In this document: positions 4,703 through 31,122 of the stretch, in pieces | Position numbering within the stretch: position 1 is the stretch's first letter | How the letters are laid out: every line of letters begins with the position of its first letter | Program-made: the position numbers and the translations under genes | Notes under the pieces: generated by a model | What the model was told of the DNA's origin: nothing | Seen by the model: only the letters and a program-made list of their open reading frames with translations | The model's database searches: none | Origin: a virus | Reading direction: 5' to 3' (one strand) | DNA length: 34,613 nucleotides | Virus record (IMG/VR): IMGVR_UViG_3300046169_000048 | Coordinates: 1 to 34,613 of that record

Positions 4703-5076
4703 GCATGACAAATTCAGAACTATCGATGCTCTCAAGTTGCATCAATGCCGATCCGTTTACTCAAGAGCAAAGTGACTTTCTAAATCAATGGTGGATGATT
4801 GTTACGGATGCTCAAGTTGATTCATTCAATAGCCAACTTCCAGAGATGTATTCTATCGTCTCTTCAGAAAGCAATGATGGCGTTAAGGTTATACCTATTG
4901 CAATTATCACCGATGAGAAAATCTATGCTTCCGTGCTTGAGGAACTGCAAGCTCTTGAAACTATTAAACTTCAATCAACTGACTTTCCTCAAAGAGATAT
5001 AATTAATTCCGAGCCTACTGGTCGCGAAACTACTGAAGAGGAAATGAACGCTCTACTCGAAGCGTTAGGACTATAA
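4699..5076 (+). CDS. Hypothetical acidic protein, 125 aa, end of tail operon
   Basis: The stop-start overlap ATGA with the fibre gene indicates translational coupling. The protein is acidic and mostly helical, with a C terminus ending GRETTEEEMNALLEALGL. It could be a fibre chaperone or a tail-tip accessory protein, since small acidic helical proteins often follow fibre genes. I do not recognise a family. Confidence 0.6.
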   Translation: MSMTNSELSMLSSCINADPFTQEQSDFLNQWWMIVTDAQVDSFNSQLPEMYSIVSSESNDGVKVIPIAIITDEKIYASVLEELQALETIKLQSTDFPQRDIINSEPTGRETTEEEMNALLEALGL

Positions 5077-5077
5077 A

Positions 5078-5242
5078 ATGGACGATATTATTTACAGGTC
5101 TTTTATCGGAATGTTCGGATTCTTTGCTACTATTGAACTTACACCTGTAAATGAAATATTAGGTTTTGCTGTTGGTGTAGCTACATTTGTGTACATGACA
5201 TCATCAGCAGTAAAGGTAATACGAGAACTTTTAAACAAGTAA
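5078..5242 (+). CDS. Small membrane protein, holin-like, 54 aa
   Basis: This short ORF begins MDDIIYRSFIGMFGFFA and holds two hydrophobic segments, about residues 8-20 and 28-46. It ends in a basic tail (KVIRELLNK). It starts one base after the preceding stop, and its stop shares a base with the next ATG at 5242. Size, two membrane spans and position next to other membrane genes fit a class II holin or a small lysis accessory protein. This is inference from topology only. Confidence 0.55.
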   Translation: MDDIIYRSFIGMFGFFATIELTPVNEILGFAVGVATFVYMTSSAVKVIRELLNK

Positions 5243-5523
5243 TGCCTAGCATTAACGATAACACTTCTATAACTATACCGCTACGTAACTTGCTTGCGTT
5301 AGTAGCTGGTACAGCAATAGCTGTGACTGGATATTTCCATGTTACTGAGCGTGTTACAATGCTTGAGCATGAGTTGTCTATGATGCGAAACAAAGTATCT
5401 GATAACAAGCAATGGATTATAGACTGGGAAAAAGAAGGTCTACTACCTGCTGACATTATACAGAATAACAAAATAGAGTTCCTTGAAAGCAGGGTTCTCA
5501 AAATTGAGAATGTAATAGAATGA
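5242..5523 (+). CDS. Membrane-anchored coiled-coil protein, possible lysis accessory, 93 aa
   Basis: One hydrophobic segment at about residues 14-33 (LRNLLALVAGTAIAVTGYF) follows a short N-terminal tail. The rest is heptad-like and charged, suggesting a coiled coil (RVTMLEHELSMMRNKV and a second helix near the end). The topology recalls spanin-like or XhlA-like lysis proteins. It overlaps both neighbours (one base upstream, four downstream), so the three membrane genes form one coupled unit. Confidence 0.55.
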   Translation: MPSINDNTSITIPLRNLLALVAGTAIAVTGYFHVTERVTMLEHELSMMRNKVSDNKQWIIDWEKEGLLPADIIQNNKIEFLESRVLKIENVIE

Positions 5524-5924
5524 CTCCTGAACTTATAGCAATGCTAGGTGGAGGCATGAGTGGCTTCGTTATGAAGTTTCTTGCTAAACAAGCTGAGACT
5601 CAGGCTCGCCTCTTCGAACAAACAATAAAAAAACAGCAAGTTGCCGATGCATCAGCCGATGCTGCTTACAAACGTGGCGGTGAAGCTGGAGGATGGATAC
5701 GTAGGTTTATAACAATCGTAGTAATGTTCGCAGTAGTCGCTGCTCCATTCATAATCGCCTTCACAAGCGTAGGTGTTTCCGTTGAGAAGGAAACCAGCTT
5801 CCTCTTTGGGCTTGTTAAGGGAGCTAAGTGGGAGACTGTCACAGGGTACGTCATACTGCCTGAGGTAAGGCAAACTGCATTAGCTATCGTTGGTTTTTAC
5901 TTCGGTTCATCTCAGGTCAAGTAA
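5520..5924 (+). CDS. Holin-like multi-span membrane protein, 134 aa
   Basis: An amphipathic N-terminal helix (residues 20-50) with many Gln and Ala is followed by a hydrophobic span at about 60-80 (RFITIVVMFAVVAAPFIIAF). A C-terminal hydrophobic part ends AIVGFYFGSSQVK. The C-terminal GFYFG-type ending and the overall plan resemble marine-phage holin-like proteins. It is coupled by ATGA overlap to the coiled-coil membrane gene. The endolysin candidate lies further downstream (9695), so the lysis genes are not adjacent. The holin role is inferred. Confidence 0.55.
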   Translation: MTPELIAMLGGGMSGFVMKFLAKQAETQARLFEQTIKKQQVADASADAAYKRGGEAGGWIRRFITIVVMFAVVAAPFIIAFTSVGVSVEKETSFLFGLVKGAKWETVTGYVILPEVRQTALAIVGFYFGSSQVK

Positions 5925-5973
5925 TTATACAATCTTTTGACAATACTTACCTGCGTGTCTTACATCAGCACCA

Positions 5974-6468
5974 ATGTCCTATAAGGGATTCATAGGTAGC
6001 GACTCTTGGACTAGAGGTCAGAAAAAAGAGTCAGAGTTCGGTAAGCTGCTCGTAGAGCGTTACCCTGAGGCTCGCCCTGCGACTTTTCAAGAGCAGGTCA
6101 GGCATATAGACTGGATATGTGACAAGGGTACGATAGACGTCAAAGCGATGAAGCGTGTATCGAGAAGTAGCAATATCCAGAGTGAATTTATATGGGTAGA
6201 GTTCAAAGGAAATGCAGGTAGGGCTGGCTGGCTTTACGGCAATCAGGACTACGTAGCCTTTGAAGCTCCTGAGAAGTTCGTTATAGTGCGTAGGGCTGAC
6301 CTTCAGACATTAGCTGAGAAACTATGCGATCTAGACGATAGGGTGAGTGTGGCTAAAGATGCATTATATAAAAACTACACTAGAAAAGGAAAGCTTGACG
6401 AAATATCAATGATTCGTTTCGATGATTTATTCAAGATAGAAAACTTTTCAATTACAAAACATACATGA
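5974..6468 (+). CDS. PD-(D/E)XK-like phage nuclease, 164 aa
   Basis: The pattern E20/E22, then HIDW near D46, then GTIDVKAMK with D55-V-K57, fits the core of a PD-(D/E)XK nuclease fold. It is followed by EFIWVEFKG and GWLYGNQDYVAFE, motifs I associate with a family of small phage endonuclease-like proteins. The likely role is DNA branch resolution or host DNA degradation. It begins a separate group after the membrane genes; a TTGACA at 5936 could be part of a weak promoter. The stop overlaps the dNMP kinase start by four bases. Confidence 0.6.
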   Translation: MSYKGFIGSDSWTRGQKKESEFGKLLVERYPEARPATFQEQVRHIDWICDKGTIDVKAMKRVSRSSNIQSEFIWVEFKGNAGRAGWLYGNQDYVAFEAPEKFVIVRRADLQTLAEKLCDLDDRVSVAKDALYKNYTRKGKLDEISMIRFDDLFKIENFSITKHT

Positions 6469-6998
6469 AAATTATAGCACTCACAGGATGCAAGATGGTA
6501 GGCAAATCTACAGTCGCTCAGGCTATCGCAGATGAATCCGATAAGGCAGTACATATAATATCTTTTGCTGATCCTATAAGAGCAATGCTTCAGGCTATGG
6601 GTGTACGATCAGAAAACCTAAATATGCAATCATTGAAAGAGGAAAAGATATCAGGTCTTGGAAAAAGTGCTAGGTATCTTTTGCAAACTCTTGGAACTGA
6701 ATGGGGTCGAGGGATGATCGCTAATGATATTTGGCTGTGGGCTATGCAACATCAAATAGAACTTGAAAAAGAAGCTGGTGCTGAAATAGTTGTTATTGAT
6801 GATTTGAGATTTGAGAATGAAGCTGATTGGATAACATCCGTTGGTGGTTATGTAGTTAGGCTAAAAAGAGATGGTTATAACTATGGTTTTGATCCTCACT
6901 CAACTGAGAAACCTCTACCTATTCACAAAACTGATTTAACCTATGACGCATCGGATGAAGATGATGCTGCTAAAACTATCCTATCCCTTGTTGAATAG
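6465..6998 (+). CDS. Deoxynucleoside monophosphate kinase
   Basis: A Walker A motif GCKMVGKST sits at residues 8-16, followed by the family pattern LGTEWGRGMIANDIWLWAM and a Walker B-like VVIDDLRFENEADWI. These are the hallmarks of phage dNMP kinases related to T4 gp1, which phosphorylate dNMPs and, in T4, modified hydroxymethyl-dCMP. The length, 177 aa, is normal to slightly short. In this genome it may supply dNTPs and may be relevant to the hypermodification genes at 16.6-19.4 kb, though no nucleotide-level modifying enzyme is visible. It is translationally coupled to the nuclease gene. Confidence 0.85.
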   Translation: MKIIALTGCKMVGKSTVAQAIADESDKAVHIISFADPIRAMLQAMGVRSENLNMQSLKEEKISGLGKSARYLLQTLGTEWGRGMIANDIWLWAMQHQIELEKEAGAEIVVIDDLRFENEADWITSVGGYVVRLKRDGYNYGFDPHSTEKPLPIHKTDLTYDASDEDDAAKTILSLVE

Positions 6999-7020
6999 AT
7001 TTACACTTGATTTATTATTG

Positions 7021-7284
7021 ATGGCATCTACTGAAGAAGCATTTGAAAACGCTAAGGCTATACTTGGTGAACAATTCCAACACTACGCAATCGTAGTCCA
7101 GTATGACGATGGAAGCGTGTGGCATGAATCAAATAATCAGCTAGTCGAGAAGGCTCTTTACCATGAAGCTCTAGGCATGATTCGTGAAGAAAAAGAATAC
7201 GATGATTCCGACATAGAACTAGAGTGGGATGAGGATGATGATGACGATGGATGGGAAACTGTTGATGAAGAAGTAGAGGAATAA
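7021..7284 (+). CDS. Hypothetical highly acidic protein, 87 aa
   Basis: I chose the ATG at 7021 (MASTEEAFENAKAILG) rather than an upstream in-frame ATG at 6943, because the extra residues only overlap the kinase gene and look unnatural. The last 30 residues are nearly all Asp and Glu, a DNA-mimic-like tail. It is the last gene before a terminator at 7313. The start region closely matches that of the gpW-like gene at 24275. DNA mimicry, for example anti-restriction, is possible but unproven. Confidence 0.6.
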   Translation: MASTEEAFENAKAILGEQFQHYAIVVQYDDGSVWHESNNQLVEKALYHEALGMIREEKEYDDSDIELEWDEDDDDDGWETVDEEVEE

Positions 7285-7312
7285 TCACTCTAAACATACC
7301 CAATCCCCTGCG

Positions 7313-7337
7313 AACCTACTTAAACAGTAGGTTTTTT
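7313..7337 (+). terminator. Rho-independent terminator after the dNMP kinase operon
   Basis: A perfect 8-bp stem AACCTACT / AGTAGGTT with a five-base loop runs into six T residues. It closes the operon ending with the acidic protein gene and lies just upstream of a strong promoter. Part of it (CTTAAACAGTAGG) recurs at 29119, ahead of another copy of the same promoter. Confidence 0.8.
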
Positions 7338-7345
7338 CGTATCTA

Positions 7346-7403
7346 AAAAAGTTAATAAAAAGTTAGAAATACGCTTTACATTGTATATCTGCTCAGGCAT
7401 AAT
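7346..7403 (+). promoter_or_regulatory. Repeated strong promoter, copy 1 (A-rich upstream element plus sigma-70 boxes)
   Basis: The -35 box is TTTACA (7375-7380) and the -10 box is CATAAT (7398-7403), with a 17-base spacer. An A-tract region with GTTA repeats lies upstream, like an UP element. The downstream leader ends CTATAAAAAACACTACT directly before the ATG at 7444, without a Shine-Dalgarno sequence. Closely matching copies lie at 8609-8637, 22712-22740 and 29163-29191. Confidence 0.85.
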
Positions 7404-7443
7404 GGTGTTACACTTAAATTACTAACCTATAAAAAACACTACT

Positions 7444-8052
7444 ATGGATTACGTCACTATCACACAATCACTCAACTTCCAAAAGGATAACAACTGCTGT
7501 GCAGTAGTAAGTCTTTCTACTGCCGCTAATATCGACTTCGAATCTGCACAAGCGATGTTCGCTGACAAAGGTCGTATGCCTAAACAGGGTACTGCACTTC
7601 ACGTTTCCTTACGAGTCATGAAGCTCCTCATGAAAACAAAGCGTCTCAATCAATATACTGGCACGACTGTATGCAGGACATTGCGTAACCTTTCCAAGTC
7701 TGGAACATTTATCATAGACGTTCGTGGTCATATCTTCACTTACAAAAATGGTGAGATACAAGATTGGATCGAAGCTAATAGCCGTAAGCGTATCGAGAAT
7801 GTATGGTACGTTGAGTCTGTTAAGGATCACGCCAATGAGGAAAAAGTTATTCGCTCTATCACTAGAGGCTTGAACAAACTAAAGAATCCAACTCGCAAGT
7901 CTCGCAAGACTGCTCGTCGTAAGGGTTACAAATGCTTTGTGCGTTGCAAAAAGACAAACGTCACTAAGATAGTAAAGGTCTTGGTCTACAAGCAATCCGA
8001 AATCAAAAGTCTACTTAAGAAATATAACTACGAGCTAGTAGGACTCGTCTAA
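7444..8052 (+). CDS. Papain-like cysteine protease-type protein with basic C-terminal region
   Basis: NNCCAVVSLSTA places a nucleophile Cys at residue 18 or 19. RGHIFTYKNGEIQDW supplies His96 and Asp107, the order Cys-His-Asp of papain/C39-like peptidases seen in many phages. Residues ~130-165 are strongly basic (TRKSRKTARRKGYK), suggesting nucleic-acid binding or a processed tail. The gene has its own strong promoter, consistent with early expression. Cleavage of a host protein is a plausible but unproven role. Confidence 0.6.
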   Translation: MDYVTITQSLNFQKDNNCCAVVSLSTAANIDFESAQAMFADKGRMPKQGTALHVSLRVMKLLMKTKRLNQYTGTTVCRTLRNLSKSGTFIIDVRGHIFTYKNGEIQDWIEANSRKRIENVWYVESVKDHANEEKVIRSITRGLNKLKNPTRKSRKTARRKGYKCFVRCKKTNVTKIVKVLVYKQSEIKSLLKKYNYELVGLV

Positions 8053-8065
8053 TAATAATATCAAC

Positions 8066-8572
8066 ATGAATATATTTGTCATAGACTCTAACCCTTCCAA
8101 AGCTGCTCGCCAGTTGTGCGATCAACATATCAATAAGATGGTTCTCGAATCCGCTCAGATGATAGCTAACTGTTTCTCACTAGAGACACTCGAGGATGCA
8201 CCTAAAACAAAGTCTGGTACAGCACGTAAGCATAGCTACTTCAATCATCCATGCAGTATCTGGGTGCGTGACTCTACGGCTAACCTTAGGTGGCTTCTTA
8301 ACCATGCCATAGCGATGGAGCGTGAGCGTATAGCTAGAGGCTACAAACCTCACTTCTCCATTGAGTTCATCAAGTGGGCTAAGAACAATATCAGCCTTAG
8401 TAACAATCCAGTCGCTAGGCGTACTGAGTTCGCCATTGCGATCTCCGAGAATATGACCTGCCGACAAGTACCCAAGTTCGATCAGCTAGATCGTGTGAGC
8501 CAATACAGGCTCTACTACAAGTACGACAAACCATTTGCTACTTGGAAGCGTAACAAACCTACTTGGATATAG
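8066..8572 (+). CDS. Pyrimidine dimer DNA glycosylase-like protein, 168 aa
   Basis: The N-terminal pattern MNIFVIDSNPSKAARQLCDQH and NKMVLESAQMIAN, then NHPCSIWVRDSTANLRWLLNHAIAM, match the phage family usually labelled pyrimidine dimer DNA glycosylase (T4 DenV-related). The expected role is excision of UV lesions or another abasic or modified-base reaction on DNA. It follows the protease-like gene by 13 bases in the same transcript. The family assignment is solid; activity is not shown by sequence alone. Confidence 0.7.
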   Translation: MNIFVIDSNPSKAARQLCDQHINKMVLESAQMIANCFSLETLEDAPKTKSGTARKHSYFNHPCSIWVRDSTANLRWLLNHAIAMERERIARGYKPHFSIEFIKWAKNNISLSNNPVARRTEFAIAISENMTCRQVPKFDQLDRVSQYRLYYKYDKPFATWKRNKPTWI

Positions 8573-8576
8573 GGTT

Positions 8577-8637
8577 AAAAAAAAGTTATAAAAAAGTTAT
8601 CAATATGCTTTACATTGTATATCTACTCAGCCATAAT
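8577..8637 (+). promoter_or_regulatory. Repeated strong promoter, copy 2
   Basis: TTTACA (8609-8614), a 17-base spacer and CATAAT (8632-8637), with an A-rich GTTA-containing upstream element. The sequence is almost identical to copy 1 from the A-tracts through the leader. It reads into the small membrane protein at 8679. Confidence 0.85.
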
Positions 8638-8678
8638 GGTGTTACACTTAAATTACTAACCTATAAAAAACACTACAA

Positions 8679-8807
8679 ATGTACTACTCAGAAAAAAATC
8701 GCAAATGCCCACTCGATGCTGCTATCATCAGAAACTGCTTAATCTTCGCAGGAATCTTAATCGCTCTCGCTATCAAAAACTGCGAGCCAATCATCTCTCT
8801 CATCTAA
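8679..8807 (+). CDS. Small single-span membrane protein, 42 aa
   Basis: The ATG follows the repeated promoter leader at the same distance as in the other copies, which decides this start. The N-terminal ten residues are polar and basic (MYYSEKNRKC). A hydrophobic span lies at about residues 14-32 (AIIRNCLIFAGILIALAI), and the C terminus is short. Strong early transcription of a tiny membrane protein suggests a role in host takeover or superinfection exclusion; this is inference. Confidence 0.6.
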   Translation: MYYSEKNRKCPLDAAIIRNCLIFAGILIALAIKNCEPIISLI

Positions 8808-8827
8808 CCTATATATCACTACTTATC

Positions 8828-9073
8828 ATGAAAAAACTTATCAAACTTATTTCGGTCGGCTCTTGCCTAGACATTGACGATCTTACTGTTTATCCTCTAA
8901 TCGCTGAGGGTGGCAAACCTGAACTCACAATGGGTCGCCCTCTTGTTGAGTGCCTCGAGAATCTCAACTGGTCAGTATCGGTATCCGATCATGACCTACA
9001 ATTAATTATAGAATCAATCGGCATAAATAAATTTGTCGACTGCGTTTCTGCTTCTGAATCTCTTACTAAATAA
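8828..9073 (+). CDS. Hypothetical protein, 81 aa
   Basis: The ATG at 8828 (MKKLIKLISVGSC) is preferred over an in-frame ATG at 8705, which would run through the small membrane gene in another frame. The protein has no recognisable motif; it is acidic and mixed alpha/beta. It is co-transcribed from promoter copy 2. Confidence 0.6.
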   Translation: MKKLIKLISVGSCLDIDDLTVYPLIAEGGKPELTMGRPLVECLENLNWSVSVSDHDLQLIIESIGINKFVDCVSASESLTK

Positions 9074-9095
9074 CTCATAACCTAAATACAAAATC

Positions 9096-9437
9096 ATGCA
9101 TAAAGCTATACTCATAAATCCCTCAGCACTCACAGTAACTGAGGCTACTGTAACTGATGATTATAAGGACATCCTGAATATGATCGGATGTCGTTGTTTC
9201 ACCTGCGTCAGAATAGATGCATACAATGTCGCCTACTGCGATGATGAAGGTCTCATCAATGGAACTGCCCATGGCACTAAGTTTAAGGCTGATGTTTATC
9301 CTGACGCAATCGCAGGTAACATTCTAATCCTTGGTGATGATGGAATGGGGGGTTCTACCGATGCAACTCTCTCGACTGATGAAGTCAGAAAGATGATGGA
9401 ATCATTCGTTATTTTCACAGCTAACCTTGGGAACTAA
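9096..9437 (+). CDS. DUF3846-like protein, 113 aa
   Basis: The layout MHKAILINPSALTVTEATV, then IGCRCFTCVRI, then YCDDEGLINGTAHGTKF and GNILILGDDGMGGSTD, resembles the DUF3846 family. That family is common in phage and plasmid accessory regions and often lies near anti-restriction genes. The biochemical role is unknown. It sits in the promoter-copy-2 operon. Confidence 0.6.
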   Translation: MHKAILINPSALTVTEATVTDDYKDILNMIGCRCFTCVRIDAYNVAYCDDEGLINGTAHGTKFKADVYPDAIAGNILILGDDGMGGSTDATLSTDEVRKMMESFVIFTANLGN

Positions 9438-9439
9438 TC

Positions 9440-9688
9440 ATGTTAAGTTACATATATTTCAATGACTTCTGCGATGCTTTCAGACGTATGGATCGCACCG
9501 ATCACTTCTCTGAAAAAGGTATGCAAGCATTATACGATTATCTTCAGGAAATAGATGATCATTATCACTTGGATGTCATAGGTCTGTGTAGCCAATATCA
9601 GGAACTCAGCGATAAGGAATTAGAAGATAACGAAAATCCTGACCTTATTGTCCGCTCATTTGATGGAGGTGCAATAGTCGAACCCTAA
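9440..9688 (+). CDS. Hypothetical phage protein, 82 aa
   Basis: The sequence resembles a widespread phage family of unknown function with the pattern FS..GM.ALYDYLQEI......LDVIGLCSQYQE. It starts two bases after the DUF3846-like gene and is followed at six bases by the endolysin. The function is not known; co-expression with early genes is inferred from the operon. Confidence 0.65.
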   Translation: MLSYIYFNDFCDAFRRMDRTDHFSEKGMQALYDYLQEIDDHYHLDVIGLCSQYQELSDKELEDNENPDLIVRSFDGGAIVEP

Positions 9689-9694
9689 AAAATC

Positions 9695-10096
9695 ATGGAC
9701 TTAGAATACAATATATCAATAATCACGCTTATCCTAGCTCTCATACAAGTAGAGTCTAGTGGCATTGACTCAGCCATAGGTGACAATGGTGCATCTTGGG
9801 GCTGCCTGCAAATGCAGGCTGCTTACGTTCAGGATGCGGCTGATCACGCTAATGAAAACTGGACTCACAAGGATGCCCTAAATCGTGACAAGGCTATCAG
9901 CATATTCACAGCATACATGGATCGTTATGCTACTGAGAAGCGTCTAGGTCGAAAGCCTACCGCTCAGGATATTGCTCGCATTCATAATGGTGGTCCAAAT
10001 GGTCACTTAAAGGTTGCAACTGAAAAATACTGGGTCAAAGTAAAGGCTCAACTAATTTCTAGCGGTGCGATTAACGCTACTGCGAAAAACAAATAA
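9695..10096 (+). CDS. Lysozyme-like / lytic transglycosylase endolysin
   Basis: LILALIQVESSGIDSAIGDNGASWGCLQMQ places the catalytic Glu at residue 20 in the SLT-type motif (E-S-S...G.S.G..Q). IARIHNGGPNG is the later substrate-cleft motif, followed by YWVKV. It should cleave the peptidoglycan glycan strand during lysis. The mildly hydrophobic N terminus is part of the fold rather than a clear signal peptide. It lies with accessory genes, away from the membrane lysis candidates at 5078-5924. Confidence 0.75.
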   Translation: MDLEYNISIITLILALIQVESSGIDSAIGDNGASWGCLQMQAAYVQDAADHANENWTHKDALNRDKAISIFTAYMDRYATEKRLGRKPTAQDIARIHNGGPNGHLKVATEKYWVKVKAQLISSGAINATAKNK

Positions 10097-10112
10097 ACAT
10101 AAATATAATCAT

Positions 10113-10676
10113 ATGGCTATATTACAAGCTCAAGCCGATAACAGTTCTGGCTTTCAAATAGATGAACTGGCTCCAAGTGGTGACTTTGTCGCTACCTGTT
10201 TAGATGTCTCCGATGAGTTCCAAGTGACTCGTCGCAAGTATCAGTCCGAGGAAACTGAACAAATTGATGTTACACGTTTCCTCTTCGGATTCAAAGCTGC
10301 CGATGGCAAGCTCTACAAGATCCAAACTTTCGAGATGAAGATTTCAGGTTCGCCTAAATCTACTCTCTACAAGTTCTTGTCAGCATGGCTCGGCAAAGCT
10401 CCTGCGATGGGCTGGGATTACTGCGAGATGGTCGGTAAAGGCTCTGTAATTAAGGTTGAGCAAACTACTAGTGCGATGGGTACGACATACTCAAAGATCA
10501 CAAGTATCACGCCTCCTAAGACTGCGTTGGCTGATTATACCGCTCAGGTAACTCCTGTTGCTGACTTCGGACATTCTGCAAGTACACCTGCTCCTGCCGC
10601 TGCACCTGCCGCTGCCCCAGTTGCTTCTGCTCCATCTGCGTTCGATCCGAATCAAGATGAGAACTGCCCATTCTAA
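10113..10676 (+). CDS. Single-stranded DNA-binding protein-like, 187 aa
   Basis: The start at 10113 (MAILQAQADNSSGFQ) is chosen over an in-frame upstream ATG that overlaps the endolysin gene. The first ~140 residues are an OB-like beta-rich domain with an aromatic/basic pattern. A Pro/Ala linker of ~25 residues then leads to the acidic tip DENCPF, the hallmark of SSB C-terminal tails that recruit replication proteins. It heads the replication group, ahead of the exonuclease. Overall sequence identity with cellular SSB is not evident. Confidence 0.65.
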   Translation: MAILQAQADNSSGFQIDELAPSGDFVATCLDVSDEFQVTRRKYQSEETEQIDVTRFLFGFKAADGKLYKIQTFEMKISGSPKSTLYKFLSAWLGKAPAMGWDYCEMVGKGSVIKVEQTTSAMGTTYSKITSITPPKTALADYTAQVTPVADFGHSASTPAPAAAPAAAPVASAPSAFDPNQDENCPF

Positions 10677-10702
10677 TCTAACCTGATTAGTTAATCATAA
10701 CT

Positions 10703-10734
10703 TGGCTGGCATCGCTTCCATGCGGTGTCAGTCA
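10703..10734 (+). terminator. Long hairpin after the SSB-like gene (possible terminator or RNA element)
   Basis: A 13-bp stem containing three G-U pairs (10703-10715 with 10722-10734) closes a six-base loop TTCCAT. No strong T run follows, only CATTTAA, so it may attenuate transcription rather than stop it. A second small hairpin CTAATC / GATTAG lies at 10673-10690. It could set the SSB gene at a higher level than the exonuclease. Confidence 0.55.
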
Positions 10735-10756
10735 TTTAACTCAAATAAAAAAAAAC

Positions 10757-11560
10757 ATGGCTACCTTGGAAAAAACTTCGAATCTCTCAGATTCACATTG
10801 GTACACGCTGGACGGAAAACCTGCGTACACTATTAAAAAAGCTAAGGGTGATGGCGATAGACCTACAACTCTACGTGACGCTCGCAAACATAACCTCTTG
10901 CCATCCGTAACGACTATCTTCGGAGTTATGGCTAAGCCTAGCTTGGAACGCTGGAAGATGGTCAAGACTGCTGAAGCTGCTATCGCTACTGAGCGTGATG
11001 CGGATGAGCCTGACGAAAGATACATACAGAGAATACTCGCTCGAAGTCGCTCTGAGACGTCTGAAGCTGCTGAGTTGGGTACAAAGGTACACGATGCACT
11101 CGATAACGCTCTCTGCGGTCGTGGAGAAGTCCCTGCTGACGTATCTAAGTACGTTGCACCTGCACTATTCCTGCTTGGTGGTTACGGAATCAAGAATCTT
11201 CAGACTGAAAAAACTGTCGTCAATAAATCAGAAGGCTACGCTGGTCGTGTAGATCTTATCGCTGAGTTTAATCATGGCTCACATATCGTCATCGACTTCA
11301 AAACTCGCAAGACTCAAGAGGATACAAAAGTTGTTCCTTACGAGTTTCAGGCTATGCAGATAGCTGCTTACGCTATGGCTGAGTTTGGCACTCTCGAAAA
11401 CGTCTACGGCTCTAACTTATACATCAGTACAACTGAGATTGGTAGAGTTGAAAAAGTTATATACGAGCCTGATCAACTTCAGGCTGAATACAAAACATTC
11501 TTACACATGAACGCTATGTGGCGTTACATCAAAAACTACGACCCTAGAGTCAACTCATAA
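10757..11560 (+). CDS. PD-(D/E)XK exonuclease, RecB/Cas4-like, 267 aa
   Basis: The signature includes LPSVTTIFGVMAKPSLERW at residues 48-66, GTKVHD with His112, YAGRVDLI with Asp166, VIDFKTRKT with Asp180 and Lys182, and QAMQIAAYA. This is the RecB-nuclease pattern of phage exonucleases (PDDEXK_1). It would resect DNA ends for recombination or degrade host DNA. It lies between the SSB-like and DnaA-domain genes. There is no recognisable single-strand annealing partner unless the SSB-like protein fills that role. Confidence 0.8.
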   Translation: MATLEKTSNLSDSHWYTLDGKPAYTIKKAKGDGDRPTTLRDARKHNLLPSVTTIFGVMAKPSLERWKMVKTAEAAIATERDADEPDERYIQRILARSRSETSEAAELGTKVHDALDNALCGRGEVPADVSKYVAPALFLLGGYGIKNLQTEKTVVNKSEGYAGRVDLIAEFNHGSHIVIDFKTRKTQEDTKVVPYEFQAMQIAAYAMAEFGTLENVYGSNLYISTTEIGRVEKVIYEPDQLQAEYKTFLHMNAMWRYIKNYDPRVNS

Positions 11561-16466: not shown

Positions 16467-16627
16467 TACAGCTACCCATGGGGGGGGGTGCAAAGGTACC
16501 CTTGGAAATGTTAGCTCTGCAAGGCGTATCCGTTGCAAAGCGTTTTTATGAGTTTTTGATTCAAACCCTTTACCACTTTAAAAAGAGAAAAAAAGAGAAA
16601 AATGAAAGTCTACTGCAAATATACTAA
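16459..16627 (+). CDS. Hidden small gene interrupted by a G9 tract (about 55 aa if one G is skipped)
   Basis: An ATG overlapping the previous stop by eight bases reads MISTATHGGG up to nine consecutive G residues. In the given frame it stops at 16551 after 30 aa. If one G is skipped it continues VPLEMLALQGVSVAKRFYEF and onward to a basic, Lys-rich end with a TAA at 16625, slightly overlapping the ParB-like start. This continuation looks like natural protein and fills an otherwise empty 135-base gap. Slippage at the tract or a consensus error could each explain it. Confidence 0.4.
16480..16488 (+). repeat. G9 homopolymer
   Basis: Nine G in a row lie within the small ORF that starts at 16459. 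G8 would fuse its two halves. Such tracts are known sites of polymerase slippage and of sequencing length errors. Confidence 0.9.
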
Positions 16628-17222
16628 AATGCTTACTACGGATGAGCTTACGGAGCATCCGAGCAATCCCAATACGCATCCACCTGAGCAAATAAAATTG
16701 CTTGCGACCATAATTGAAAAACATGGCTGGCGTAGACCAATTGTGGCAAGCAATAGGACTGGCGAGAATGTAATCATCAAAGGTCATGGAAGATTTGAGG
16801 CTGCTCAACTTCTGGGACTGAAGGAATTACCTGTGGATATTCAGGAATATGAATCCGAGAAACATGAGCTTGAAGATTTGGTTGCCGACAATAGACTAGC
16901 TGAGCTGGTGGACGTTGATATGGACAAACTGAGAGAAGCGTTCGAGAATGTAGATACGACTCATTTTGAAACTGGCTACACTGATGGCGAGATTGAAAAT
17001 ATTATCAACAATATGGAAATCGAGAAGGATGACTTGGTTCTCGATAGAGAAGTGGACGTAGACCCTAAAGAAGCCTCAGGTCAAAAATCCATGATCTTGC
17101 ACTATATGAAGGATGAGGCTGAAACTCTTTCCCCCATTCTCGGTTCACTTCAGTCCATATACAACTGCCGTAACATTAGCGGTACTGTCCTAACTTTACT
17201 AAAGAATTATTGCCATGAGTAA
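16602..17222 (+). CDS. ParB/Srx-like domain protein, copy 1 (complete motif), 206 aa
   Basis: The N-terminal half carries the ParB-like fold: EHPSNPNTHPPEQI at 18-31, IIEKHGWRRPIVASN, then IIKGHGRFEAAQLLG with GHGR at 61-64, and DIQEYESEKHELEDLVADNRLAE. The C-terminal ~100 residues are acidic and helical. In phages such proteins often accompany DNA methylases or base-modification genes and may bind or nick DNA or bind nucleotides. It heads the hypermodification cassette and overlaps its paralogue by eight bases. A purine-rich GAGAAAA leader precedes the ATG. Confidence 0.75.
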   Translation: MKVYCKYTKMLTTDELTEHPSNPNTHPPEQIKLLATIIEKHGWRRPIVASNRTGENVIIKGHGRFEAAQLLGLKELPVDIQEYESEKHELEDLVADNRLAELVDVDMDKLREAFENVDTTHFETGYTDGEIENIINNMEIEKDDLVLDREVDVDPKEASGQKSMILHYMKDEAETLSPILGSLQSIYNCRNISGTVLTLLKNYCHE

Positions 17223-17859
17223 AAAATCTCGCACTCCAACTGTATACTGCTCACATAATGAAATGGTTGCAGTATCTGACCTAGAGGTTCACCCTAAGAG
17301 TCCATACATTCATAGCGAATCGCAGATTGTTACATTATCTCGAGTAATCAAAGCTAACGGCTGGAGAAACACAATCGTAGTAAGCGGTCGTGATAAGAAA
17401 ACAATTGTTAAGGGTCGACTACTGTACGAGACTGCACTCGCTAACAAATGGGATGAGGTTCCAGTAGAGTATCAAGAATATTCTAGCATTGGTGAAGAAA
17501 TCGCTGATATGGTGGCTGACAATAAGGTAAGCTCGATGTCGGAGATTGATAGCTTCATACTTGGAGATGTTATGGAGCGTATAGATGAGATTGGTGGTGA
17601 TCTTTTGAATACTGGCTTCGACCAGTCTGTAGTAGATGTCATAACTGGAAAACTTGATGAAGCTATCGAACTTGGGGGTGAGGCTGAGTTTGATGTTGAA
17701 GAGGATGATTCTAGCATTAAGACCATCAAGCTAATTTACGATAAGGATGACTTTGAAGAGTTCACTAGAATCCTCAAAGACATTTGTGAGTCTGAAGAAA
17801 AACTACCTTCTAGAGTTATTTACGAACTGGCACTAAATGCCCATTCGGATGAATCATGA
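17215..17859 (+). CDS. ParB/Srx-like domain protein, copy 2 (degenerate motif), 214 aa
   Basis: It aligns with copy 1: LEVHPKSPYIHSESQIVTL to the HPSNPNTHP block, IKANGWRNTIVVSGR, IVKGRLLYETALANKW and VPVEYQEYSSIGEEIADMVADNKV. The GHGR motif of copy 1 is replaced by GRLL, so the conserved His-Gly-Arg site is lost. It is probably a duplicate kept as a regulatory or DNA-binding partner. It overlaps the dioxygenase start by four bases. Confidence 0.65.
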   Translation: MSKKSRTPTVYCSHNEMVAVSDLEVHPKSPYIHSESQIVTLSRVIKANGWRNTIVVSGRDKKTIVKGRLLYETALANKWDEVPVEYQEYSSIGEEIADMVADNKVSSMSEIDSFILGDVMERIDEIGGDLLNTGFDQSVVDVITGKLDEAIELGGEAEFDVEEDDSSIKTIKLIYDKDDFEEFTRILKDICESEEKLPSRVIYELALNAHSDES

Positions 17860-18653
17860 AAATAAAAACAATACATAGACGTACATTAAATTATAAGAAA
17901 TACGTCAAGCGTAAGGCATCTACTGATGATTGCATCAATGAGATAACTGAGCCATGTAAAGTTTTCGATCAGGATGGAAATCTTCTTTGCGTTTATGACA
18001 TGATTGGCATAGACACTACTGATCTTGTTTCAGAACTGAAAGATGTTAAGTATGGTGAGACTACTAGAACTGGTGGGCTTGTTACCACTAGCAGAATCTT
18101 CGGATTCCAACCTCGACTCGAACGTAGACAGCGTGCTTTCTGTAATCAGACAAGTTTAGCTAATGAGAATCCAAAAGTCGAAGGTATGCTACGTAAGTTG
18201 GCTTCGCATATCACTAAGAAGTACATGGATACTTCTCCTGAAGTTTTCGAGAATCATAAAAAACTTTTAGATAAAGTTATTGATGAGTGGAGAATGCCTG
18301 ACTCACTTTTCACTAGCGGTATCATAAATAAAAACAATGCTTTAGCTTATCACTTCGATGCTGGTAATTTTAAAGATGTTCTTTCTTGTATGTTGGTTCT
18401 GCGTGAAGAGATGGAAGGTGGATGGCTTTGCGTTCCTGAGATACAAACTCGATTCCTACTCAAGCATAACTCTTTGTTCATGTTTGATGGGCAGAAAATA
18501 CTTCATGGCGTATCGCCCATGAACAAGATGAGCGAAGATGCTTACAGATTCTCTATCGTCTATTACAGTCTTAAGGGTATGTGGAAATGTTTGACGCTGA
18601 CTGAAGAGTTGGCTAGAGCTAGAGAAATAGAAATGGCTAAACTTAATCAATGA
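17856..18653 (+). CDS. TET/JBP-like 2-oxoglutarate/Fe(II) DNA base dioxygenase, 265 aa
   Basis: The C-terminal half has the double-stranded beta-helix signature: AYHFDAGN with His166 and Asp168, a middle GGWLCVPE strand, ILHGVSP with distal His217, and AYRFSIVYYSLKGMW with Arg231 for 2-oxoglutarate. The preceding TTSRIFGFQPR block is typical of phage TET/JBP members. It should oxidise a methyl group on DNA, 5-methylcytosine or thymine. It is coupled by ATGA to the ParB-like gene upstream and to the glycosyltransferase downstream. The metal and cofactor residues are all present. Confidence 0.75.
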   Translation: MKIKTIHRRTLNYKKYVKRKASTDDCINEITEPCKVFDQDGNLLCVYDMIGIDTTDLVSELKDVKYGETTRTGGLVTTSRIFGFQPRLERRQRAFCNQTSLANENPKVEGMLRKLASHITKKYMDTSPEVFENHKKLLDKVIDEWRMPDSLFTSGIINKNNALAYHFDAGNFKDVLSCMLVLREEMEGGWLCVPEIQTRFLLKHNSLFMFDGQKILHGVSPMNKMSEDAYRFSIVYYSLKGMWKCLTLTEELARAREIEMAKLNQ

Positions 18654-19369
18654 AACTTTTACTAGTATTCCCATCAAAGGGTCGACCTGAAAACATCCAG
18701 AAGTATTCAATACCTCTAGCTGAGAAGCTAGGTGAGGACTACAAGATATTCATCGAGCCTGAAGAAACTGAAACATACAAGTTTGATAATCAGATCATTC
18801 TTCCTGAAAACAAAATGGGACTGAATCGTTCCGTCAAGTTCGCTGACAACTACGCACTAGAAAATGGCTACGATCTAATTTTTAAGATAGATGATGACGT
18901 TAAGTCGATTGGCGAAATCGAAAAAGATTTAGGATTAATCAAAAAAGCGTTTCGAAATAAAAAAATTGGTGCTGTATGTTTTCCTTATTCATTTGAGTGG
19001 TACGCTAAGAGTAAGAAGTTATTTACGAGGCTGAATAAGCGGATGCAAACTTGCTATATCATTCGTGCAGGGTTATATCAATCTACTGAAAAAATATCAG
19101 TTTTTGAAGATTTTTATCAGTTCCTAATGCTTCGGCAGAATGGATACAATACTTTATACTGCCCTAAGCATATGATCGACCTAGCAAAAATGGTCGGTGA
19201 AGGAAAAGGTGGATTGCAACTTTATTCAAGAGATAGAGAAAAGGCTGAGAAGGCTATACGTCACTTTCAGTCGATAGATAGTTCTATCAAAATGATTGAG
19301 AAGCCTGATAAAAAATGGAAAGTCGAACCTAAGTTCACTTCTAAGTTATATCGTAGCGTTGCTATATAG
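18650..19369 (+). CDS. TET-associated-type glycosyltransferase (GT-A), 239 aa
   Basis: LLLVFPSKGRPENI at residues 3-16, KMGLNRSVKFADNYAL around 55-70, and DLIFKIDDDVKSI with Asp81-Asp82-Asp83 form a GT-A fold with its metal site. VFEDFYQFL supplies the usual Glu153-Asp154 pair. This matches the TET-associated glycosyltransferases encoded beside phage TET/JBP genes, which add sugars to hydroxymethylated bases. The start overlaps the dioxygenase stop by four bases. It ends directly before the terminase small-subunit gene. Confidence 0.75.
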   Translation: MKLLLVFPSKGRPENIQKYSIPLAEKLGEDYKIFIEPEETETYKFDNQIILPENKMGLNRSVKFADNYALENGYDLIFKIDDDVKSIGEIEKDLGLIKKAFRNKKIGAVCFPYSFEWYAKSKKLFTRLNKRMQTCYIIRAGLYQSTEKISVFEDFYQFLMLRQNGYNTLYCPKHMIDLAKMVGEGKGGLQLYSRDREKAEKAIRHFQSIDSSIKMIEKPDKKWKVEPKFTSKLYRSVAI

Positions 19370-20005
19370 ATGATTGATTCAAACCTACTAGATCAGGTAG
19401 ATAAAAAACTACTTGCTAATATCGTCAAAAAAGTTCGTGACGGAAAAACACTCACTGCTCAGGAACAATCCTTCTTGGATTCTCAGCGTGAGAATGATTC
19501 TAGTGGCAAGCTCAATGAAGACTCGCTCATAAAAACATCTGAGCTTGTAGAGCTTTTTGGCATATCGGCTCAAAGTATTTCTAACTTAGCTAAGGATGGT
19601 GTAGCTGTTCGTGTTGCTAATGGAAGATACAAAACATACGAGTCTATCAAAAACTACATTCGTATGCTTCAAAAGGGTCGCAAGTCAAAGCATGGCAGTA
19701 CGGCTTCGATGGAGGAACTACGTCAAAGATTGATAGATGAGCAGGGTCGAAAGGAATCTGCTGTTGCATCGCTCAGAGAGTTGGAACTGAAGATGAAAGC
19801 AGAATCACTTATACCTGAATCAGAAGCTACTGAGACTCTCATGAAGTTACTGACTCCTTTACGCAGATTACTTGATGCACTTCCTAGACAGATTGCTGCT
19901 CAGGCAAATCCAGAGAATCCCAATATCGCTGAGCTTGCGGTACGCAATGGGCTTGACGATAGAATCTTTGATCAGATACAGAAAATCATAGATGAGGAAA
20001 CTTGA
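19370..20005 (+). CDS. Terminase small subunit, Nu1-like
   Basis: A winged helix-turn-helix at about residues 53-95 (KTSELVELFGISAQSISNLAKDG...YKTYESIKNYIRML) matches lambda Nu1, which binds the packaging site. A helical oligomerisation region and a C-terminal part (TLMKLLTPLRRLLDALPRQIAAQ) follow. At 211 aa it is somewhat longer than lambda Nu1 (181 aa) because of an N-terminal extension. It abuts the glycosyltransferase gene and is followed by a structured noncoding gap. Confidence 0.75.
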   Translation: MIDSNLLDQVDKKLLANIVKKVRDGKTLTAQEQSFLDSQRENDSSGKLNEDSLIKTSELVELFGISAQSISNLAKDGVAVRVANGRYKTYESIKNYIRMLQKGRKSKHGSTASMEELRQRLIDEQGRKESAVASLRELELKMKAESLIPESEATETLMKLLTPLRRLLDALPRQIAAQANPENPNIAELAVRNGLDDRIFDQIQKIIDEET

Positions 20006-20127: not shown

Positions 20128-20895
20128 ATGGCATCTAACGTAACTATAAACTCAACAGGGTTCAATAACATGATGCGTACCCTTAGTAAAAAGACTGGTG
20201 CTAGTTATAAGCAGGTGGTCAAAGCTACTACTGGTTCAATACTAGAAAATACGGCTCGTAGAACTTATAAAACTAAACTCAAAACCATCAAGCTTAGTGT
20301 TAATAAATTCCTATCTAGAAAATTTAAAGCTCAGGACGGCTCTAAGATTAGAAAAGGTAAGGATGGTTCTCTAGTCTTCAGGTCGAGCAACTGGAGTAGC
20401 GGTCGCTGGATAAAGTTAAGAAGTAGTTTCGATGTCAGAAAAGTTGTTCAGACTCCCAATGGCAGACAGCTTGAGGGTAAACTAAAGAGTCAAGTCAATA
20501 GATCGCTCAGAGAATACAGGTCTACTTTAAGGAATATCATTAATAGAAAAAAGGCTAGGATCGCATCATCTCAGGCTTCATTTCTTAACATAATGAAACA
20601 GCTTCGGATACCAATAAAATCAAACGCATCACTTGGTGCTGCTAGGAAGGCTAAGATTGACGCTGGTCACAAAAGAGCTTTACGTGGCAGTCAGAATATG
20701 ATGGGTAAGGATTCTTATTCTATAACAATAAGCAGTAGATCAAGATCAGCACTCAACCCTAAGAGTGGCGGTGTTGGTGCGTTTAGGTGGTCATTCAATG
20801 GTCAGGTAAAAGCATTTGAGACTGCTGCTAAAAAAGACTTAAAAACATACACACAAAAATTCGCATCAAGAAATGGCTTCATCGTTAAAGGGTAA
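20128..20895 (+). CDS. Very basic protein of unknown function between terminase subunits, 255 aa
   Basis: The protein is extremely rich in Lys, Arg and Ser. Its N-terminal block FNNMMRTLSKKTGASYKQVVKATTGSILENTARRTYKT recalls minor head or tail-completion proteins. The C terminus is Gly/aromatic (GGVGAFRWSFNGQVKAFE). It overlaps TerL by 23 bases. Position and charge suggest DNA binding during packaging or a virion component. I do not recognise a named family. Confidence 0.6.
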   Translation: MASNVTINSTGFNNMMRTLSKKTGASYKQVVKATTGSILENTARRTYKTKLKTIKLSVNKFLSRKFKAQDGSKIRKGKDGSLVFRSSNWSSGRWIKLRSSFDVRKVVQTPNGRQLEGKLKSQVNRSLREYRSTLRNIINRKKARIASSQASFLNIMKQLRIPIKSNASLGAARKAKIDAGHKRALRGSQNMMGKDSYSITISSRSRSALNPKSGGVGAFRWSFNGQVKAFETAAKKDLKTYTQKFASRNGFIVKG

Positions 20896-22315
20896 TGTAA
20901 AAAAACTTTTTGCAAAGCGTTCATTAAAACCTCCAGTAGATTGGGCTTTTGAAAACTGTACGCTAAGGGATAATGTTTCTGAACTCCCAGGTCAGTTGAA
21001 AATATTCCCCTACGCTAAGGAACCTCTCAATGCCCTCATTGATCCTACTGTAAACAAAGTAACTTTATGCTGGGGTTCGCAGTCGAGCAAAACTACGACC
21101 ATGTACACAGGTATCGGTTATCTTCTTACGGAGTTCCCTAAGGATACGCTTTGGATTATGCCTAGTGCGGAGAATGCTCGTAACTTTTCAAAGGGTCGCT
21201 GGCTTCCTTTCATTGAGGACTGCAAACCTCTCTTAGCAGAATGCCCAGTCAGCGTGGCAACAGGTCGTGTGGACTCTGAGAAGATCACTAATATGCGTCA
21301 AGAGTTCTTGTCTTGCACACTAACTTTTGCTGGGGCAGGCTCAGAAAATAATGTCAAGTCTGCACCTGTCGCCTACTTAGTTCTAGATGAGATTGATGAG
21401 ATTGACCCTGATATACGACTAGCTGCTCTTGAGCGTATCAAGGGTCGCAGGCAATACAAGATCATACAAACTTCTACACCTAAGGATGAGGTCGGAGGCA
21501 TATGGGAGGAATACATATATGGCGATCAGCGTAGATACTTCATGCCATGTCCGCATTGCAATGAAAGGATTGAGTTCACTTGGCGACAAACTGACAACGA
21601 TGGCAAGTTGCGATACTCGATAGGTTTCGATGAGAATGCAAAGCTTGAGGATGGGGGGTACGATTATGGCATGGTTGCATCTTCAGCACACTACCGATGC
21701 CCTGAGTGCGATGGCAAGATACTTGATGCTCATAAGCCTGACATGATTAAGAATGGAGAATGGATCGCTAAGAACCCTAAAGCTCCAGTAGGTCATCAGA
21801 GTTACCACCTGAACTCTATGTATGCTCCTGCTATGACCTTCTCTTATTTGATTACAACTTGGTTACAAGTAAGTAAGTCAATGCATGGACTAAAAAAGTT
21901 TGTTCAGGGTAACTTAGCTGAACCTTGGCGTGAGGACTGGGCGAATCAGGATCAGGCTGACGCTCATCAACTTGAAAGAGATTATCAACGTGGCGACTTG
22001 CAAGGTGAGATACGCATACTTGCCGCTGATACTCAAACTGATTCTTTCTGGTTTGTCGTTCGAGGTTTCAATAGAGATGGCGAAAGTTACTTGGTCGATT
22101 GCGGTCAGGTCGCAACATTTGCTGAACTAGATGAGAAGTTCGATCAGCATACCTGTCAAGCTGCTATCATTGACTGTGCTGGCGATAGAACTGCTGAGAT
22201 ATACGAAGAGGTATTCAAGCGTAGAAATAAATGGTTCGGATCACGTGGTTGGAAAAACTTGCAAGGCGATCAGCCATACAGGATGCAGATGAAAGATCCG
22301 TTTCACTGGAGATAA
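20873..22315 (+). CDS. Terminase large subunit, GpA family, part 1 (frame broken near the C terminus)
   Basis: Walker A is at LCWGSQSSKTTT (68-74) and Walker B at YLVLDEIDEID with Asp172 and Glu173. Two CxxC pairs (MPCPHC and YRCPEC) form the GpA zinc finger. The nuclease domain begins at RILAADTQTDSFW and includes AAIIDCAGDRTAEIY. It cuts and pumps DNA into the prohead. Translation stops at 22313, yet the C-terminal ~120 residues continue in the +1 frame, so an intact protein of about 600 aa needs one +1 shift. Confidence 0.85.
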   Translation: MASSLKGNVKKLFAKRSLKPPVDWAFENCTLRDNVSELPGQLKIFPYAKEPLNALIDPTVNKVTLCWGSQSSKTTTMYTGIGYLLTEFPKDTLWIMPSAENARNFSKGRWLPFIEDCKPLLAECPVSVATGRVDSEKITNMRQEFLSCTLTFAGAGSENNVKSAPVAYLVLDEIDEIDPDIRLAALERIKGRRQYKIIQTSTPKDEVGGIWEEYIYGDQRRYFMPCPHCNERIEFTWRQTDNDGKLRYSIGFDENAKLEDGGYDYGMVASSAHYRCPECDGKILDAHKPDMIKNGEWIAKNPKAPVGHQSYHLNSMYAPAMTFSYLITTWLQVSKSMHGLKKFVQGNLAEPWREDWANQDQADAHQLERDYQRGDLQGEIRILAADTQTDSFWFVVRGFNRDGESYLVDCGQVATFAELDEKFDQHTCQAAIIDCAGDRTAEIYEEVFKRRNKWFGSRGWKNLQGDQPYRMQMKDPFHWR

Positions 22316-29714: not shown

Positions 29715-30038
29715 ATGAGTCTATCAAATTTAATCAGCGATAATCTTAATTTCGCAATCAGTCAAATATCCGTTACGCTTACGGCTATCACTCCAACTAA
29801 CTCAGAGATATACATAGCCAATAAGCAGGATGCTGAGTCAGCCTTCGAGATATTCGAGGATGGTCGAGAGGTTACCATTGATACCAAGTTTTATTTAAAT
29901 CGCTCAGATTATGGCGTTTTGCCCACTAAAGGTATGGTCTTGACAGATGGCACTACGAACTACAAAGTAGAAAACATACATGACGACTCAATTAACATCA
30001 CTAGAAGAATCGACTGCTCCTCGCAGTATCAACGATAA
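29715..30038 (+). CDS. Head-tail connector-like protein, 107 aa
   Basis: The helical start (MSLSNLISDNLNFAISQI) is followed by a beta-rich domain with VLPTKGMVLTDGTTNYKVENIHDDSINITRRIDC, the compact barrel text of head-completion or stopper proteins that measure 90-115 aa. It lies between capsid and tail genes as expected. The next ORF starts inside it, 59 bases before its stop. Confidence 0.6.
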   Translation: MSLSNLISDNLNFAISQISVTLTAITPTNSEIYIANKQDAESAFEIFEDGREVTIDTKFYLNRSDYGVLPTKGMVLTDGTTNYKVENIHDDSINITRRIDCSSQYQR

Positions 30039-31122
30039 AATCGTTTTATACATAATCGGTCACGCTCCTGACGCTAAATATTTAAAGCGTCTATTAAAGA
30101 AGGTAAGACCAATCACATCGCATCTTTGTTTTCTCAATACAGATGACAGGGATGATTGCTTGCAGATTATAGAGAATAGTGGCATCAAACATACTTACGA
30201 TGTCCTTACGTTTCCCAGTAAGGATGAGTTTGATTTTTCCATGGCTCGCAATCGTGCTATGCAGATGGCTCTGAATGTCGCAGAGGATGACCAGTTCATC
30301 ATGTGGCTTGATTGTGACGATGTTATAGAAAACCCTGAGGCTATCATTGAAGAAATGAAAGCCAATAGTAGTTATACTGCTTTCGCTATGCCTTATCAGG
30401 TTACGAGCAATACTGGAAACCTTCAAAAAATTCGCATACATAAATCTGATTGGAAGTGGATCAATAAAGTGCATGAAGAACTAATGCCTGATGACGATGG
30501 TCGTAGACAAGCGTTCGCACTCAAAACTAAAGTTATCCATGCTCCAGACGATGATAAATCTAATCACGATTTCCATATATCGTTACTAAAAAACAATATT
30601 AAGTATTCCCCTGCCGACTACGCTTATCTAGCAAAGGAACATTTCAACCTAAATAAGTTTGAGGATGCTATCGGCTGGATAAAGAAGGCTATATCTATTC
30701 ACGATGTAGATATTGAGATATATAACCTTTGGATAATGTTGGCACTTTCTTACCAATACCTAGATAGAGAAACTGAAGCTACTGAGACGCTCTACAAGGC
30801 TCTTGAGTTGAGACCTCAGAGAAAAGAGGCTTATTACTATCTTGCGGAGCTATATGGGCGTAAGGGTGGGCAGTATCTATACAAAGGATACGCTCATATA
30901 CTGTCTTGTAACGCTCAGAGTGAAACCACAGATCCACTCAGCAATCAACTTATATACGATTCTCTCTGCTTCAAGCTTCACGCTAAGTACGATCAAAAAC
31001 AAAATAAATATCAATCTGCTATTGACATATTAGGCAAGTGTAAGGACTGCGATGAAGAAGCTAAGGAAATAATAAGTGAATGTCGCAAAGCAATCCATGA
31101 TGATCAAGAAAAGTATTTATAA
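29980..31122 (+). CDS. Glycosyltransferase family 2-like protein with TPR repeats, 380 aa
   Basis: Residues ~20-190 are a GT-A domain: FSMARNRAMQMAL and FIMWLDCDDVIENPE with Asp111/Asp113/Asp114 as the metal-binding site, then KIRIHKSDWKWINKVHEEL. Residues ~205-340 are helical pairs of TPR type (YLAKEHFNLNKFEDAIGWIKKAI, ALELRPQRKEAYYYLAELY). Such proteins transfer sugars to proteins, lipids or DNA. It is placed among connector and tail genes, so virion-protein glycosylation is the first guess, with modified DNA an alternative. The first Met overlaps the preceding gene; no better start is seen. Confidence 0.75.
   Translation: MTTQLTSLEESTAPRSINDKIVLYIIGHAPDAKYLKRLLKKVRPITSHLCFLNTDDRDDCLQIIENSGIKHTYDVLTFPSKDEFDFSMARNRAMQMALNVAEDDQFIMWLDCDDVIENPEAIIEEMKANSSYTAFAMPYQVTSNTGNLQKIRIHKSDWKWINKVHEELMPDDDGRRQAFALKTKVIHAPDDDKSNHDFHISLLKNNIKYSPADYAYLAKEHFNLNKFEDAIGWIKKAISIHDVDIEIYNLWIMLALSYQYLDRETEATETLYKALELRPQRKEAYYYLAELYGRKGGQYLYKGYAHILSCNAQSETTDPLSNQLIYDSLCFKLHAKYDQKQNKYQSAIDILGKCKDCDEEAKEIISECRKAIHDDQEKYL

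Follow-up and report, generated by a model that had tools for sequence, protein, structure and literature searches.

The viral sequence IMGVR_UViG_3300046169_000048 of the IMG/VR database, analysed here over its whole length of 34,613 nucleotides (the window), carries a cassette of four overlapping genes at positions 16602-19369 of the + strand. It encodes two ParB-like proteins, a TET/JBP-type 2-oxoglutarate/Fe(II) dioxygenase (hereafter TET), and a TET-associated glycosyltransferase (TAGT), and is best explained as a post-replicative DNA-modification operon beside the packaging genes. The product is probably a base-J-like glycosyl-5-hydroxymethyluracil at sites defined by the ParB-like proteins. 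There is a little more than an even chance that the cassette represents a phage base-J pathway in the full sense, in which two ParB-like proteins would site the oxidation of thymine by TET and a freely exchangeable glycosyltransferase module would finish the base, with neither a methyltransferase nor modified-nucleotide synthesis. This module consists of one or two glycosyltransferases, of several types among closely related phages.

In the course of events that we infer, the two ParB-like proteins would bind phage DNA and steer the dioxygenase to particular sites. The dioxygenase would hydroxylate the 5-methyl group of thymine in polymerised DNA, yielding 5-hydroxymethyluracil (5hmU), and the TAGT would move a sugar from a nucleotide-sugar onto the hydroxymethyl group to give glycosyl-5hmU. 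Sugar addition would probably precede packaging, and its probable purpose would be to block restriction.

The dioxygenase (265 amino acids, 17856-18653) matches the Pfam profile PF12851 (E 2.7e-13) with 49.9 bits, above the curated cut-off of 34.9. An earlier note, made from the sequence alone, allowed that a profile search might place this protein outside the DNA dioxygenases; it falls inside. The residues named there, His166, Asp168, His217, and Arg231, are correct, comprise the HxD...H iron triad and the 2-oxoglutarate-binding arginine, and are invariant in both alignments of phage TETs, of 14 and 30 sequences. The predicted model has a high confidence score (predicted local distance difference test, pLDDT, 92.9), and its best structural match is human TET2 (Z 21.3, 251 residues aligned), with NgTET1 (Naegleria TET1) at Z 19.7, CMD1 at Z 19.4, and CcTet within Z 17-20; ALKBH3 and FTO score behind these, at Z ~15. 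The TET fold covers nearly the whole model and Pfam assigns a single domain, in a set of comparisons that did not include the JBP1 structure or profile itself. The names 'queuine tRNA-ribosyltransferase' and 'SNF2 DNA repair', found in homologous records and PHROG 6059, were dropped on the grounds of profile and fold. The 14-sequence broad TET alignment, used as a search query, returned no conserved stretch, and a genome scan found TET relatives in three actinobacterial assemblies only, too distant to name a host.

The glycosyltransferase (239 amino acids, GT-A fold, 18650-19369) matches the TAGT profile PF20691 (E 4.1e-7) with 30.6 bits against a cut-off of 27.5, and the match is confined to residues 6-89. 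Its DDD (81-83) and ED (153-154) motifs, described earlier as kept, are invariant in the alignment of its subgroup. The predicted model is of moderate confidence (pLDDT 73.8); its structural matches include GT-A enzymes, SpsA and N-acetylglucosaminyltransferase I among them, as well as nucleotidyltransferases of similar fold. Neither the comparison of its sequence with solved structures nor that of the protein with sequenced phages gave a useful lead. Profile and structure comparison, the check proposed in the earlier note, matches both the TET/JBP and the TAGT families and confirms the TET fold.

The first ParB-like protein (ParB1; 206 amino acids, 16602-17222) is a stand-alone ParB_N domain (PF02195, E 5.9e-7, 29.9 bits, cut-off 26.3) with an intact GHGR box. 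It matches PHROG 498 and 620, with values down to 2e-32, and ParB/Noc/Spo0J structures by sequence. PHROG 498, its top family, is named DNA methyltransferase, and among sequenced proteins ParB1 is closest to the ParB domains found in phage proteins that carry the annotation adenine-specific methyltransferase; this company fits the role of a detachable DNA-targeting domain, which ParB1 may be. The second protein (ParB2; 214 amino acids, 17215-17859) is a paralogue of ParB1 with no Pfam match, recognised through PHROG ParB families only (PHROG 620, E 4.4e-22). In the alignment it has GRLLYETA in place of the GHGR box and keeps the following ADN motif. Both are predicted DNA-targeting subunits, and the combination of one intact and one altered site suggests that the pair may form a hetero-complex.

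The genes overlap by 8, 4, and 4 nucleotides in this order, and 0 nucleotides separate the glycosyltransferase gene from that of the small terminase subunit. The open reading frame (ORF) coordinates of the four-gene unit are exactly those given before, all on the + strand.

IMG/VR lists the record as linear. Joining the window ends gives one continuous in-frame ORF of 274 amino acids, equivalent to a single 256-amino-acid gene of the relative G003 (39,920 bp), which is colinear with the window and circularly permuted against it, and whose two ends overlap by 183 bp (98.9% identity). The window and G003 are thus essentially complete, in line with the 'apparently complete genome' supposed earlier. 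The earlier statement that neither a methyltransferase nor a nucleotide-level hydroxymethylase is present also holds: neither C5-methyltransferase (PF00145) nor the thymidylate synthase/hydroxymethylase superfamily (PF00303) gives a match at E<=10 in the window or in G003, with positive controls for both. Among the window ORFs there is likewise no profile match for a PF18751-type kinase or a PF18724-type amino acid:DNA transferase (ADDT). A truncated record that has lost its methyltransferase is ruled out by the joining ends and by the colinear relative, which has a terminal overlap and lacks a C5-methyltransferase.

The ParB-TET pairing recurs widely. Three protein-guided scans provided ~240 further loci, and partners were counted around the 132 TETs with at least 1.5 kb of upstream and at least 2.5 kb of downstream sequence, by purpose-built profiles and a C5 motif search. 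A ParB gene lies within 1.2 kb of 130 of these 132 related phage TETs; sampling began from TETs rather than ParB, but the queries were almost all TETs of ParB-linked loci, and this figure thus describes the clade and not all phage TETs. The partners are TAGT (51), kinase (40), ADDT (39), and FkbM (22), and 16 loci have no recognised decorator. A nearby C5-methyltransferase occurs once, at the locus L193. Dereplication at 80% identity leaves ParB at 65/67 and C5-methyltransferase at 1/67. Whole related records contain PF00145 in 7 of 50, a lower bound since many may be fragments, and PF00303 in none of the 50. These counts rule out the missing methyltransferase as a peculiarity of this phage. 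The earlier prediction of DNA hypermodification by a TET and a TAGT is well supported as a prediction, while the idea that a cassette without a methyltransferase is exceptional does not stand: this state is normal in the ParB-TET clade, and for actinophages both annotations and a description of a thymidine version exist already.

The decorating enzymes are exchanged among these loci. TETs with TAGT and TETs with kinase/ADDT partners are intermingled in a tree of 86 TETs, which requires the partner label to change at least 22 times between three named classes. The decorators interchange on TETs up to 77-80% identical; for example, two TETs sharing 77% identity are accompanied by TAGT in L140 and by ADDT and kinase in L144, where the kinase is slightly under the Pfam cut-off. 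Among the IMG/VR relatives with complete cassettes, the order ParB1-ParB2-TET is the same as in the window, with identities of 65-68% for ParB1, 54-57% for ParB2, and 70-79% for TET. DNA similarity between the window and L004 is 69% over 16599-18646, breaks off where the TET gene ends, and sets in again at 19366, where the small terminase gene starts. The window glycosyltransferase has itself been swapped, in a clean replacement between conserved TET and small terminase genes. Most relatives have a different TAGT type of ~272 amino acids in its stead; L004, L005, and L026 have an additional PF04488-type glycosyltransferase, and L026 holds yet another TAGT-like gene. The window type is found again in L250, L258, L264, and L198, sometimes upstream of TET. 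A near-identity DNA search with part of L059 gave no useful lead. The ParB-TET loci form a phage module of wide occurrence: its predicted core for targeting and oxidation is conserved, its decorating enzyme is swapped, and the final sugar chemistry may be the rapidly exchanged part.

This exchange bears on the substrate. ADDT and kinase are enzymes assigned to thymidine hypermodification. Because the oxidase stays while kinase/ADDT and glycosyltransferase interchange, the intermediate would be the same, 5hmU, in both settings, and this is the simplest reading of the partner exchange. Of the two substrates proposed in the earlier note, thymine is accordingly favoured by the ADDT/kinase interchange, the near-absence of C5-methyltransferases beside these TETs, and the lack of a thymidylate-synthase-type enzyme, and host-made 5-methylcytosine (5mC) remains as its rival. 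Residues of the pocket were left out of this choice, since positions near the active site are invariant across TETs with differing partners, including that of L193 with its C5-methyltransferase.

The rival substrate is unlikely, yet it has the most in its favour among the alternatives. The TET would oxidise 5mC made by the host and the TAGT would glycosylate the resulting 5-hydroxymethylcytosine (5hmC) at host methylation sites, so that the methyl mark is borrowed. The closest solved folds, TET2, NgTET1, and CMD1, act on 5mC, and the biochemically studied phage TETs reportedly do so too, according to Burke et al. in 2021. Several further points weigh against thymine. At L193 (3549-7312), the order ParB-TET-ParB is followed directly by a C5-methyltransferase gene (PF00145, E 1.4e-70), the only such locus found; together with the 7/50 records above, this indicates that some family members may use 5mC as substrate. 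The window TET is only 41% identical to the nearest TET with both ADDT and kinase, and its deeper placement in the tree is weakly supported. A TAGT alone is no pointer to thymine, and the role proposed for it in T6-like phages is the addition of a second glucose to glucosyl-hydroxymethylcytosine (PMC13390438). In contrast, hosts would have to supply 5mC to many phages, with 43/50 records, many of them perhaps fragments, lacking a C5-methyltransferase, and closely similar TETs pair with ADDT/kinase, the assigned chemistry of which is thymine-based. For a ParB-TET system of the 5mC type, L193 is the obvious locus to compare.

Two other explanations are both quite improbable. The glycosyltransferase at 18650 might have its target outside DNA, for instance in a virion protein or a host surface glycan, with the TET yielding 5hmU (or 5hmC) and the DNA left with the bare hydroxymethyl base or with an unidentified group. 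This would agree with the divergent sequence and partial 30.6-bit match of the window enzyme, and with the 16/132 ParB-TET loci that have no recognised decorator. It agrees poorly with the overlap of the glycosyltransferase start codon with the TET stop, with its one-for-one replacement by other types of TAGT in precisely this position, and with the recurrence of the subgroup beside TET in other phages, upstream of it as well. A packaging or regulatory mark in place of a restriction shield, in which sparse ParB-defined glycosylated sites would flag the DNA for terminase, has equally little likelihood. The cassette adjoins small and large terminase genes in the window, its relatives, and several actinophages, and terminase-like genes lie at most 8 kb downstream in at least 40 of 100 loci, but this linkage is not seen at all loci and late genes are often grouped in phages whatever their function.

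Annotated ParB-TET cassettes exist already in actinophage genomes, and the cassette of the window is a glycosyltransferase-type member of this broad module. Phage TET-TAGT operons are also said to have been predicted earlier, by Iyer et al. in 2013. The phage 5mC-TET pathway, reportedly composed of C5-methyltransferase, TET, and glycosyltransferase (again from Burke et al. in 2021), shares the last two enzymes with the window, whereas its co-encoded C5-methyltransferase has no equivalent there. For Rhodococcus phage Tonitrus, a possible system of thymidine hypermodification has been described (PMC11955845), made up of its ParB, tet-like, aGPT-Pplase2, and 5-hmU-kinase genes; ADDT (PF18724) is the Pfam amino acid:DNA transferase family, and the corresponding Tonitrus gene is the one annotated aGPT-Pplase2. 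In Mycobacterium phage Prince the TET is annotated as a thymidine hydroxylase. Tonitrus, Prince, and Arthrobacter phage Kharcho resemble the window in having one or more ParB genes just before TET/JBP, modifier genes after it, a terminase nearby, and no adjacent annotated C5-methyltransferase, and Kharcho also has two tandem ParB genes. Their TETs are ~32-38% identical to that of the window, and their decorators are a 5hmU-type kinase and/or aGPT-Pplase2 instead of a glycosyltransferase. With the kinase/ADDT thymidine hypermodification of the Lee et al. type, only the oxidising step would be shared. Arthrobacter phage Bolt007 is closer in layout, with ParB, TET, and then a TAGT-like glycosyltransferase. 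It differs in its single annotated ParB, two short genes between ParB and TET, and an added N-acetylglucosamine-deacetylase-like (PIG-L) gene; its TET is 32% identical to that of the window and its glycosyltransferase is under the TAGT cut-off.

The proposed likeness to trypanosome base J, made by JBP1/2 and the J glucosyltransferase, lies in the hydroxylation of thymine within DNA followed by glycosylation by a separate enzyme. In contrast, no additional J-binding domain is seen in the 265-amino-acid TET of the window, and separate ParB proteins would do the targeting. Bacillus phage SP-15, with its glycosylated dihydroxypentyluracil, is another phage with a sugar attached to a base that replaces thymine in its DNA; there, a different chemistry, with a hydroxymethyluridylate synthase, produces the modified base ahead of DNA synthesis. 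According to a 2019 paper, glucosylated 5-hydroxymethyluracil is known from kinetoplastids and unreported in phages. If the proposed pathway is true, base J gains a counterpart in bacterial viruses with simple, separable parts, which fits the published proposal of a phage origin for TET/JBP enzymes. It also offers a general rule to test, that the ParB-TET core writes the hydroxymethyl mark and the final chemistry depends on which decorator lies next to it. Should this rule hold, metagenomic phages would be a source of site-specific thymine-modifying enzymes. The choice between thymine and 5mC for phage TETs without a methyltransferase is reduced to one enzyme assay.

Several decorator genes and TET types lie outside the pattern of the window. 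FkbM-family methyltransferase-like genes fill the slot after TET at L022 and many other loci, suggesting that another, uncharacterised finishing step may exist. PIG-L/glucosaminyl deacetylase genes stand beside TAGT or kinase genes at L014 (7661-8251) and, by annotation, in Mycobacterium phage EastView9101, a hint at possible deacetylation of an N-acetylated sugar on DNA. In the longer TET type (Cr30/S-CBWM1), ParB is rare, an ADDT or kinase partner occurs in 20 of 45 loci, and the C5-methyltransferase motif in none of these 45. Long phage TETs of ~420-480 amino acids (L265, L266, L267, and L271-L350) occur with ADDT and kinase and mostly without ParB, and in some records they bear the name 'putative SNF2 DNA repair protein'. 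The additional N-terminal region of these TETs may take the place of ParB. The contig L226 (IMGVR_UViG_3300028800_000001; 327,295 bp, jumbo-phage-sized) has two TET/JBP genes at 3940-11373, each beside ParB genes and with ADDT and kinase nearby. A 2021 survey found no TET/JBP hydroxylases in the jumbo phages characterised by then.

Outside the modification chemistry, the window encodes the small terminase subunit at 19370-20005 (phrog_57, E 2.9e-19) and the large subunit at 20873-22315 (PF05876, E 3.2e-42, and PF20454), both on the + strand. Comparison of its capsid protein with sequenced phages gave no useful lead. A deoxynucleoside monophosphate kinase is encoded at 6465-6998 (phrog_139, E 4.5e-40) in this otherwise small genome. 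The protein encoded at 29980-31122, between head and tail genes, has weak GT2 similarity and TPR repeats, lacks a counterpart in the colinear G003, and is possibly a virion or surface glycosyltransferase. Further Pfam matches among the window proteins are a pyrimidine-dimer DNA glycosylase (PF03013) and a destabilase-type lysozyme (PF05497).

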